This document shows positions 14,138-19,205 of a DNA stretch of 23,365 nt, in pieces. Source of the stretch: a virus; the IMG/VR virus record IMGVR_UViG_3300027801_000171, positions 1 through 23,365 of that record. The stretch is one strand, 5' to 3'. A program made the position numbers and the translations under genes. The notes below the pieces were generated by a model, which was not told the DNA's origin, did not search any database, and saw only the letters and a list, made by a program, of their open reading frames with translations. The stretch's first letter is position 1. Every line of letters begins with the position of its first letter.

Positions 14138-15007
14138 CTATTCTGTCACAGTTGAGTTATATGTGATGTTTTGTTCTTTTTCCCTGTCGTCTAACATGTA
14201 CTGAGATCTGTATAGATTGTTTACATCCATTACCTCTTCTAGAACTGTAAGACTTCCTTGTGCAAAATTGGCAATTGCAGCGGTATCCTTGGGGAAACAC
14301 GATCCACCAAATCCTTTTTTACCATCAAAGCCAGGCACCTTGGTGTGTCCATTACCAATACGTTTGTCATATCCGACCGCATTTGCAACTACTGAGTACC
14401 TACTATCATATCTGTCGAGAAGATCTTTGAACTGATTGAACCAGAGAACTTTTGTTGCAAGGAATGAGTTGATTCCATACTTGACGAAACTTGCTTCCAT
14501 TGGTGTCATATAGAACACCTTGCATGGACTACACTGGCTGTACTGTTGATATACACGTTTTAATTGTTTGGTGTATTCGTATTCTCCACCCATGATATGA
14601 AACTTGGGGTTGATAAACTCTTCGAGTGCCGCTCTCTCGGTAAGGAACTCTGGATTGTATACAATACGTTCACTACCTATATGTCTAGTTGTGAGTTCGT
14701 CTATAACGTCTGGTGTGACTGTAGATTTGATTACAACCATCCCAGTGGGCATCTCCATAACCTCTGCAACAACCGATTGAATGATTCTGTCATCTATTGT
14801 ACCATCTTCACTCATAGGTGTAGGAACTGAGATAAAGGTAACGTCTGGTGCAAATGCTTCTAGATCACTGACGTGAGTACCATATTGTGGATCGATAATC
14901 ATCAATTCAACGTCATTAGTATTGAATCCATACTCTATTGCTTTACCGACAAATCCATGTCCAACTATCGCAATCTTTTGTTTACCTTTTAACCTATGTT
15001 CGCTCAT
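14138..15007 (-). CDS. UDP-glucose/GDP-mannose dehydrogenase family protein, shortened C-terminus
   Basis: 289 residues. It should oxidise a nucleotide sugar to the uronic acid in two NAD-dependent steps. The NAD-binding loop GHGFVG is at 16-21, a NPEFLTE block at 119-125, and the catalytic cysteine C237 sits in GFGGSCFPKD. Typical UDP-glucose dehydrogenases are 390-450 residues; the protein stops about 50 residues after the catalytic cysteine, so most of the C-terminal UDP-binding domain is absent. There is no sign of a frameshift inside the read part. An in-frame ATG at 15037 is possible, but the ATG at 15007 overlaps the previous stop (ATGA) and has AAGGA upstream. It may alter host surface sugar or supply a virion or DNA modification. 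Confidence 0.8.
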   Translation of the reverse strand: MSEHRLKGKQKIAIVGHGFVGKAIEYGFNTNDVELMIIDPQYGTHVSDLEAFAPDVTFISVPTPMSEDGTIDDRIIQSVVAEVMEMPTGMVVIKSTVTPDVIDELTTRHIGSERIVYNPEFLTERAALEEFINPKFHIMGGEYEYTKQLKRVYQQYSQCSPCKVFYMTPMEASFVKYGINSFLATKVLWFNQFKDLLDRYDSRYSVVANAVGYDKRIGNGHTKVPGFDGKKGFGGSCFPKDTAAIANFAQGSLTVLEEVMDVNNLYRSQYMLDDREKEQNITYNSTVTE

Positions 15008-15555
15008 TCCCAAGTCCTTGTGTTTAATGGTAGACATCCTACGATATGCAATCTTCGTATAAAGTTATGACAATTAAATGCGGTGTGTCTCTTAGTTGTA
15101 TTAGTGAAGTAAATTTTACCCTCTTCTAGATGATATGCTTTATCACGCAAAAGCATCATGCAATCTTCGTTTGTATCTATGGGCAAGTGAATCCGTTGTG
15201 ACCAATCCTTGTGATATGTCAGTACACTCCGTGGTTCCTGTATCATAAGTCTGGTTCTATGTAATTTAAAATGTTCCATAAAAGAATTGATTATGGGTGC
15301 ATCAAACAATGGATATACAAAAGAACATTCCCATTCTTCCGCACCTTTACCCTTTGCTTTTCCAGCTGCTTCTTGACTATATTTGATGCCCTTCTTATCA
15401 GGAGAATCGCTTTGTAAAGAAAACTGTGTCCAATTGATCAGGTTTTTCTGTTCAGATCGATACTTGGTTATTTCCTGTATCTCTTCTTTTAGTTCGGCTA
15501 AATCAAACTCAAAATTATGTATTTGAAATATATCATTTAGAAATGTAGCGTTCAC
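15004..15555 (-). CDS. Aspartyl/asparaginyl beta-hydroxylase-like Fe(II)/2-oxoglutarate oxygenase
   Basis: 183 residues. The iron-binding pattern is seen: YHKDWSQRIHLPI gives H115-x-D117 and R121, then about 40 residues later GKIYFTNTTKRHTAFN (distal H157) and NFIRRLHIVGC. This spacing and the RIHLPI strand match the AspH family (PF05118), cupin-fold enzymes that hydroxylate Asp or Asn side chains or related molecules. The start is GTG (15555), since no ATG is suitably placed; GGGGGA lies about nine bases upstream and the gene overlaps its neighbour by 23 bases. Substrate unknown; it sits among sugar-related genes. Confidence 0.7.
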   Translation of the reverse strand: MNATFLNDIFQIHNFEFDLAELKEEIQEITKYRSEQKNLINWTQFSLQSDSPDKKGIKYSQEAAGKAKGKGAEEWECSFVYPLFDAPIINSFMEHFKLHRTRLMIQEPRSVLTYHKDWSQRIHLPIDTNEDCMMLLRDKAYHLEEGKIYFTNTTKRHTAFNCHNFIRRLHIVGCLPLNTRTWE

Positions 15556-17585: not shown

Positions 17586-17655
17586 GTTTTTTTCCTTGTT
17601 ATGAAAATGATTGTACGACTTTTCTGTTGCCAAGTAAGTCGTCAACTCCGTTAAA

Positions 17656-17700
17656 TTAAGCTGCTAGAGCGAATTCACGTGGTGCAAAGTTATCGTTTGC
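17656..17700 (-). other. tmRNA proteolysis-tag reading frame
   Basis: The resume codon GCA at 17700-17698 opens 14 codons for ANDNFAPREFALAA, then TAA. The ALAA end is the usual degron for ClpXP-type proteases; the first alanine comes from the charged tmRNA itself in addition to this frame. The ANDNF start matches alphaproteobacterial tags I recall; the PRE centre is less familiar. Confidence 0.9.
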
Positions 17701-17786
17701 ATTTGTAGTTTTGTTCCAATTACGGAGAACAACCGATAGTCTCCACTTCCCTACAACGTATGTCGATTCTATTTCTCCCCCATCAA

Positions 17787-17874
17787 ATACACTTCCAATC
17801 ATCCGACCCCAGTGTTCCAGTGTCGTCTTTTGGTGTTACAGCACCACGCACCTGTAAGTACGATGGAAGTGTAT
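17787..17874 (-). repeat. Inverted repeat closing the tmRNA intervening segment
   Basis: ATACACTTCCA (17874-17864) right after the CCA end pairs perfectly over 11 bases with TGGAAGTGTAT (17797-17787) just before the coding piece. It would extend the acceptor stem in the precursor and present both mature ends for cutting by host RNase P and 3' processing enzymes. A TGGTG/CACCA hairpin lies inside the loop. Confidence 0.85.
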
Positions 17875-17958
17875 ATGGTGGAGGAGATGGGTACTGCCCC
17901 CATGTCCATTCCGTTTTCAAGTTGTTTCGTCAACTATGTTAATACGACTATTTAACCA

Positions 17959-18037
17959 TAAATAATCGTCTGTGTCCAGTATATAAATCTTTTTTAAATA
18001 CACTGTGATAAAATAGTTACACTAAATTATCGTCTGT
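17959..18037 (-). repeat. Near-identical 15-base direct repeats upstream of the tmRNA
   Basis: ACAGACGATAATTTA (18037-18023), which spans the stop codon of the small membrane protein, recurs with one change as ACAGACGATTATTTA (17973-17959) just ahead of the tmRNA acceptor piece. The segment between them is AT-rich and contains a TATACT (17983-17978) without a good -35. The repeats may mark a past insertion or duplication, or be a binding site. Confidence 0.5.
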
Positions 18038-18310: not shown

Positions 18311-18330
18311 ATACGCGGAAATCCGCGTAT
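18311..18330 (-). terminator. Hairpin terminator at the end of the nucleotide/replication block
   Basis: Perfect 8-bp stem ATACGCGG/CCGCGTAT around a four-base loop, beginning within the stop codon of the TauD-like gene. The following tract (AGGCGATATTTT) has few Ts, so termination may be partial. Confidence 0.7.
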
Positions 18331-19205
18331 TATTCTGTTGCAATTATGTTACTATAATCACATGCGATTCTGTGTAAAACTCTGTTGGGCATTCCTTCGA
18401 ATTCCCATCTTTTGTGTATACTCAACCACTGTTCTGAGAGAACTACATCACCATCTTCCCAGTCGTGGTGGTATGCAAACTTTGGTTTCAATACATGTTT
18501 CTTGACTTCTTCAATCAAGTCTTTGAAGTCCACATCTGACATACCGTCAATACCAAACATTTGTAGGAATGGAAAGTATATACCTTCTAGTCCAGCCGCA
18601 TTCTCCATGACTATTGGAAATAGGTTTTCTTTGTTCACATGTTCGTTAAAGAATTTACTTGTACTGTATTTACCACTCTCATATCCAAAGTATGCCTTCT
18701 TACCCTTTAATCTATCTCTGAGTTTCTCGGGCATCTTCCTATACGCTTCGATCATATTGATCCAAGACGTCCTAGAACCCTCTGTACCTTTCTTACCGTA
18801 CAACCATATCAATGGCATACGTTTCTTATTCGATGGTTGATTTGCATGCCAGTCTAATGCACTGACGTGGCCAAACAAGCCTTCTTCTCCGTGTTTATCC
18901 TTCTCCCCAGTTACTCTGAGTATTCCATCCTGTAGGGATATGTGTTTGGTGCGTTCGTGAGTTGTACTCTGAACCTTACCTAACTTTCTACAGAATGCAA
19001 GTTCCTCATCTGGTGTTAAATCTTGGTCTTTGAAGACAACAACCATCTGTGTCATTACAGCCGATCCAATTTTTGTTATCTCATAATCAGTTAGATCTTG
19101 TATCCTACCCCTGACAATAACAGTCCATTGGTTGGGGTGGTATTCCCATCCCCATCTTTCTATAAGCGTCATACTGCCACCAACCCATCTTTCTACATGC
19201 GTCAT
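18330..19205 (-). CDS. TauD/TfdA-like Fe(II)/2-oxoglutarate dioxygenase with altered metal site
   Basis: 291 residues. LDWHANQPS (118-125) aligns with the metal motif H-x-D of TauD but reads H120-A-N122. The distal part matches well: WEDGDVVLSEQWLSIHKR (H264) and NRVLHRIACDYS with R275 as the likely 2-oxoglutarate contact. Asparagine for aspartate could change metal binding or open a site for another ligand, or be normal in this phage subfamily. The first 22 codons contain an imperfect 33-base tandem duplication (MTHVERW / MTLIERW), so the true start may be 19205 or 19172; GGTGG precedes the second. It overlaps the previous stop. Substrate unknown. Confidence 0.7.
   Translation of the reverse strand: MTHVERWVGGSMTLIERWGWEYHPNQWTVIVRGRIQDLTDYEITKIGSAVMTQMVVVFKDQDLTPDEELAFCRKLGKVQSTTHERTKHISLQDGILRVTGEKDKHGEEGLFGHVSALDWHANQPSNKKRMPLIWLYGKKGTEGSRTSWINMIEAYRKMPEKLRDRLKGKKAYFGYESGKYSTSKFFNEHVNKENLFPIVMENAAGLEGIYFPFLQMFGIDGMSDVDFKDLIEEVKKHVLKPKFAYHHDWEDGDVVLSEQWLSIHKRWEFEGMPNRVLHRIACDYSNIIATE

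Follow-up and report, generated by a model that had tools for sequence, protein, structure and literature searches.

A predicted two-piece tmRNA gene in a phage genome fragment and its viral and bacterial relatives

The window analysed here is a whole virus record of 23.4 kb (23,365 nt), in which family searches identified genes for a DnaB-type helicase, a flavin-dependent thymidylate synthase, a cytidyltransferase and a DUF932 protein. Since these four genes fit such a genome, the window would represent a fragment of a T4-like (Kyanoviridae-type) marine phage; the nearest named record is phage C48C1 (Kyanoviridae; 67.5% in the helicase). No permuted tmRNA was found in C48C1, and related phages can therefore do without the gene described below. 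Its neighbours on the minus strand encode a small membrane-like protein (18272–18027) and a small secreted-looking protein (17588–17238), neither of which has a family match in PHROGs or Pfam. Also near it, at 18330–19205 and 15007–15555 on the minus strand, are genes for a TauD-type dioxygenase and an aspartyl/asparaginyl hydroxylase-like protein. The family searches of the window, itself a fragment, detected no lysogeny genes, and a promoter scan returned sites no more frequently than in shuffled sequences. The virus appears to be one of marine-type bacteria. As a clue to the host, the tag sequence of the window was sought in 84,980 genomes and gave no match; a second pattern matched one contig only, which is placed in a Rhodobacteraceae bin, yet carries a phage-type DNA polymerase as judged from its ORFs.

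An earlier note, made from the sequence alone, had proposed a phage-encoded, circularly permuted tmRNA at 17615–17950, and this reading is borne out by the models RF01849 and RF04321 and by ARAGORN. Using cmscan, alpha_tmRNA (RF01849) matched the minus strand at 17991–17612 over 355 of 355 model positions (141 bits, E 6.3e-39; curated cut-off 50 bits), and tmRNA_permuted (RF04321) matched it at 17938–17656 (120 bits, E 2.5e-23; cut-off 47 bits). ARAGORN independently called a permuted tmRNA at 17971–17565 with the tag ANDNFAPREFALAA closed by a stop codon. The locus proposed in the note thus stands, except that the gene is slightly longer, extending over about 17991–17612. The folding energy of the whole region lies 4.8 sd below that of dinucleotide shuffles, none of 100 being as low, and in the minimum-energy structure of the precursor the acceptor stem is prolonged by a long helix within the spacer. 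Together, the cmscan and ARAGORN matches and the fold rule out a chance match. Judged by these features, the minus strand encodes a complete permuted (two-piece) tmRNA, an uncommon split version of the RNA with which bacteria rescue stalled ribosomes.

Within the precursor, delimited at 17612–17991 (minus strand, as are all features below) by the alpha_tmRNA model, the parts follow in the permuted order: T arm and CCA end, spacer, then the 5′ acceptor strand and the mRNA-like part. The piece transcribed first (17876–17941), recognised from the sequence, comparison with the related viral contig L110 and T-stem pairing, is the 3′ part of the tRNA-like domain. It comprises the 5′ strand of the helix joining the two pieces, GGAC and the T arm ATGGG-GGCAGTA-CCCAT (17887–17907; sequence and covariation), and the 3′ acceptor strand CTCCTCC followed by A and CCA (17876–17886). 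The intervening spacer of 94 nt (17782–17875), which diverges in L110 and varies in length among viral relatives, is predicted to be removed. It contains both strands of a precursor helix, AUACACUUCCA at 17864–17874, supported by pairing in viral spacers and by a compensatory change relative to L110, and UGGAAGUGUAU at 17787–17797, the latter separated by UUGAU from the predicted mature 5′ end. The 5′ acceptor strand GGGGGAG (17775–17781) forms seven of seven pairs with CTCCTCC, including G3-U70, and the CCA end is present. G3-U70 is the identity element for alanine. The spacing and pairing of the acceptor strands are as the earlier note had claimed, the mature ends that it predicted, 17876 and 17781, are likewise recovered from the sequence, and every other detail of it that could be checked proved correct. 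Downstream follow a D-loop-like segment AAATAGAATCGAC (17762–17774; alpha_tmRNA alignment and sequence), the tag frame and a terminal hairpin ACGACTT..AAGTCGT with the conserved loop UGGCAACAGAA (17612–17646; alpha_tmRNA alignment and fold). The tag frame (17656–17700; ARAGORN and sequence) runs from the alanine resume codon GCA to GCT TAA, and its product has a hydrophobic Ala-Ala end.

Several lines of evidence point to selection on this gene. Contig L110 is 92.7% identical to the window across 6.2 kb surrounding the tmRNA; within the gene, 1 of 66 nt is changed in the tRNA-like piece versus 11 of 94 nt in the spacer, and the single difference in the tag frame is synonymous. Among 106 non-identical viral tmRNAs, the T stem is paired in all, with between two and four kinds of pair at its outer positions; covariation is also seen in the helix that links the pieces, and two acceptor pairs vary with compensation. 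Because sequence gathering required at least six acceptor pairs but did not require T-stem pairing, covariation is tested more cleanly by the T stem. G3-U70 is found in 173 of 173 viral and 89 of 89 chromosomal genes, although G-C would also have been accepted. The last two tag alanines are present in 92 of 92 recognised viral tags, with all four codons in use; an Ala-Ala-type end helped to define these tags, so that only the codon variety counts as evidence. Since this end varies only in synonymous codons, the gene appears to be kept for its function. Overall, G3-U70, the CCA end, the resume codon and the degradation-type tag, which ends in ALAA, are all intact and selected for.

The spacer sets viral genes apart from chromosomal ones. 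It ranges from 8 to 294 nt among viral relatives, with a median of 80 nt versus 23 nt in chromosomal genes. Sinorhizobium phage Phosso (L339) has a spacer of 410 nt, the longest seen, which may hold an insert. In viral spacers of at least 36 nt, positions 2–9 after CCA pair with positions 6–13 upstream of the second piece, counted from its 5′ end. Pairing reaches 94–98% of 81 such spacers, with many pair types, and is lower in registers shifted by one; a second, separately gathered viral sample gave 92–100% (48 sequences). By comparison, pairing in this register amounts to 52–77% in chromosomal genes whose spacers reach the same length (31 sequences). Comparison of the window with L110 reveals a compensatory change from C-G to T-A in this helix. 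The SAR11-like chromosomal sequences examined, presumed to be SAR11 from order, tag and genome size, have spacers of 7–12 nt, whereas in HTVC008M, a phage of SAR11, the spacer measures 49 nt and contains the precursor helix. Viral genes with spacers of at least 36 nt thus share a covarying helix that extends the acceptor stem and is much weaker in bacteria; it would hold both halves together until processing. We found no description of this helix, or of a split between viral and chromosomal lineages, in the literature consulted, which did not cover the founding papers on two-piece tmRNAs.

Viral permuted tmRNAs are abundant, with at least 120 in each of two pattern scans of viral contigs, and 45 of 49 re-scored viral contigs exceed the curated cut-off. 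The long BLAST matches of the window are to other viral copies (75–77% over 170–370 nt), whereas chromosomal genes match it in pieces of 30–70 nt only. A first tree of 107 viral and 90 chromosomal genes, whose viral sample was collected with a pattern that lies within the gene and may therefore be biased, gave a clean single-branch split between the two (support 100/99); when the pattern columns and T arm are left out, this split needs two changes, a single change being found in 16% of bootstrap trees. To avoid the pattern bias, a second viral sample was gathered by T arm and acceptor alone. In the resulting unrooted tree of 261 tmRNAs and 154 columns, a branch with support 97/88 has 171 of the 172 viral genes on one side and 87 of the 89 chromosomal alphaproteobacterial genes on the other. 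The window is on the viral side, and SAR11-like genes are among the chromosomal genes set apart. The exceptions are Mesorhizobium phage Cp1R7A-A1, which groups with the chromosomes, and chromosomal L194 and L207, which fall on the viral side; long branches lead to L336 and L194, and HTVC008M was left out since its TTTGAC segment lies outside the extraction rule. One further observation concerns Rhodobacteraceae bacterium Water_Bin34 (G094; L125–L133), which has eight tmRNA matches, one of them chromosomal (284 bits) and seven weaker (six above the cut-off). Contig L125, the one contig read, contains a phage-type DNA polymerase, and several viral contigs are therefore probably binned with this bacterium.

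The earlier note had taken the permuted form as a sign of transfer from an alphaproteobacterium. As a matter of type this holds, the alpha model fitting best; as a recent capture it does not, given the tree of 261 tmRNAs and the short BLAST pieces. The window is not nested among chromosomal alphaproteobacterial tmRNAs, and a recent copy of a host ssrA was rejected on this basis. The split between viral and chromosomal tmRNAs argues against recent transfer from host to phage, and which side is older is not given by an unrooted tree. A chance pick-up of host ssrA that is now decaying, for instance through integration at this gene, would draw on the fact that ssrA is a common integration site whose fragments occur in prophages (PMC9004378). 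The gene of the window, however, is complete, with covariation and a conserved tag that indicate purifying selection, on the tree it lies among numerous viral copies and apart from those of hosts, and the family searches made found no integrase; such a pick-up is thus extremely unlikely. An old phage-borne lineage is suggested instead because viral genes stand apart on the tree and the long BLAST matches are only viral. We see about an even chance that viral permuted tmRNAs form such an old, separate lineage with its own precursor architecture, namely a long spacer and a covarying helix beyond the acceptor, which would have passed between phages infecting Alphaproteobacteria and methylotrophs and been retained as a dedicated tool for ribosome rescue or counter-defence, rather than being borrowed from hosts time and again.

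Phage permuted tmRNAs are already known and the window gene is a further example: a phage database of 2021 contained 53 two-piece tmRNAs, of which 50 were marine or aquatic (PMC9004378). Among the closest parallels described is Melnitz, a Methylophilales phage (MZ577095, PMC9004378) that, like the window, combines a Kyanoviridae-type phage with a permuted alpha-type tmRNA. The two are alike in layout, T arm, GGGGG acceptor and precursor helix, and the Melnitz tag, ANDNYVPVDYALAA, also has 14 residues ending in ALAA. They differ in tag sequence, neighbouring genes and spacer length (142 nt in Melnitz, 94 nt in the window); moreover, in Melnitz the tmRNA is closely followed by a glutamine riboswitch, whereas the window gave no match to one under permissive thresholds, even at E 5. 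Buchholz et al. placed Melnitz ssrA with Alphaproteobacteria, using a smaller sample (PMC9004378), a placement that the viral/chromosomal split would refine. Chromosomal alphaproteobacterial ssrA (RF01849) shares with the window the permuted order, the tRNA-like domain, G3-U70, the TCGAC segment, an ANDN-type tag start and the terminal UGGCAACAGAA hairpin. In most genomes searched, chromosomal genes score 143–313 bits with alpha_tmRNA, compared with 141 for the window, and viral genes differ from them in their separate grouping, longer spacers and regular precursor helix.

Matches to tmRNA_permuted above the cut-off were also obtained in eight isolates with hosts in Alphaproteobacteria, HTVC008M (L341), RcSimone-Hastad (L003), RcXuper (L335), RcRudolph, DSS3P8 (L337), MD18 (L340), Phosso and Cp1R7A-A1, which are diverse in phage type and tag; only Cp1R7A-A1 groups with chromosomal genes. 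None of their deposited records has a tmRNA annotated in the regions examined. Tags have a median length of 14 residues in viral and 12 in bacterial genes, and ALAA is the commonest end in both. Further viral ends are RLAA, AQAA, KVAA and LEAA, and the tag frames of contigs L044, L079, L095, L115 and L118 are odd or exceptionally long, e.g. ANDNVSNVFSFVDFGSLKNYVNEDYALAA. Other phages, such as mycobacteriophages and the tag-less DS6A, also carry tmRNA. Neither form is permuted, the tmRNAs of mycobacteriophages being one-piece.

We consider it probable that this permuted tmRNA (ssrA) gene of the phage is functional and supplements trans-translation by the host. By its sequence, a single precursor holds the tRNA-like 3′ half, the spacer and the mRNA-like half, with the acceptor strands and the further spacer helix paired within it. 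By analogy with known tmRNA biology, RNase P, acting before G17781, and 3′ maturation at CCA 17876 would remove the spacer, so that two RNAs joined by base pairs remain. Host AlaRS would charge the RNA with alanine, and host SmpB and EF-Tu would deliver it to ribosomes that have stalled at the end of a broken mRNA, where translation would restart at GCA, append ANDNFAPREFALAA and free the ribosome, the tagged fragment being degraded. SmpB was found neither in the window nor in 49 other viral records, many of them fragments, although control genomes were positive; with none in the 50 viral records searched, host SmpB would have to serve. Without an SmpB of its own the window does not hold a self-contained trans-translation system, which leaves the identity of the tmRNA unaffected. 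The likely benefit would be that ribosomes are kept circulating while mRNA is destroyed during infection. In T4-infected E. coli, host tmRNA is stable and host tRNAs are degraded (PMC9697503), consistent with a continuing need for ribosome rescue, and the same functional reading was given for Bradyrhizobium elkanii phages with tmRNA genes (PMC12656738).

The phage RNA might instead act as a competitor that weakens trans-translation in the host by tying up AlaRS, SmpB or ribosomes, as the tmRNA of DS6A, which has no tag frame, was reported to inhibit endogenous tmRNA in E. coli (PMC11915505). A pure competitor needs no tag frame, whereas that of the window is complete, as in most viral relatives, and has only a synonymous change relative to L110, making competition very improbable. 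Alternatively, the phage version might mark chosen host proteins for degradation, supplying amino acids or removing host factors, as Buchholz et al. proposed for Melnitz (PMC9004378). The ALAA end, as for proteolysis, and the slightly longer viral tags would agree with such redirected tagging. On the other hand, tmRNA targets ribosomes stalled on broken mRNA and not particular proteins, nothing in the window RNA suggests a selection among proteins, and viral tags end like bacterial ones, so we regard it as very unlikely. The anatomy suits equally a counter-defence role, in which a spare tmRNA sustains rescue when mRNA or the host tmRNA is cleaved by a nuclease or toxin of the host's defences; the viral sequence, being far from host tmRNA, could resist a nuclease aimed at the host version. 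To our knowledge, however, no defence aimed at tmRNA exists in these hosts, and this role too seems very improbable. Because the degradation tag is intact and the RNA has alanine identity, ordinary trans-translation would be favoured.

From its sequence relationships, the gene of the window would belong to a large phage-borne branch clearly diverged from bacterial copies. The separate viral lineage and the precursor helix together provide a simple marker for separating phage from host ssrA in metagenomes. Moreover, a permuted tmRNA is present in several isolates whose hosts (Rhodobacter, Ruegeria) are laboratory organisms, which makes the reason for its carriage readily testable. The presence of a full trans-translation RNA in many phages implies that infections are limited by ribosome rescue frequently enough for selection to act.
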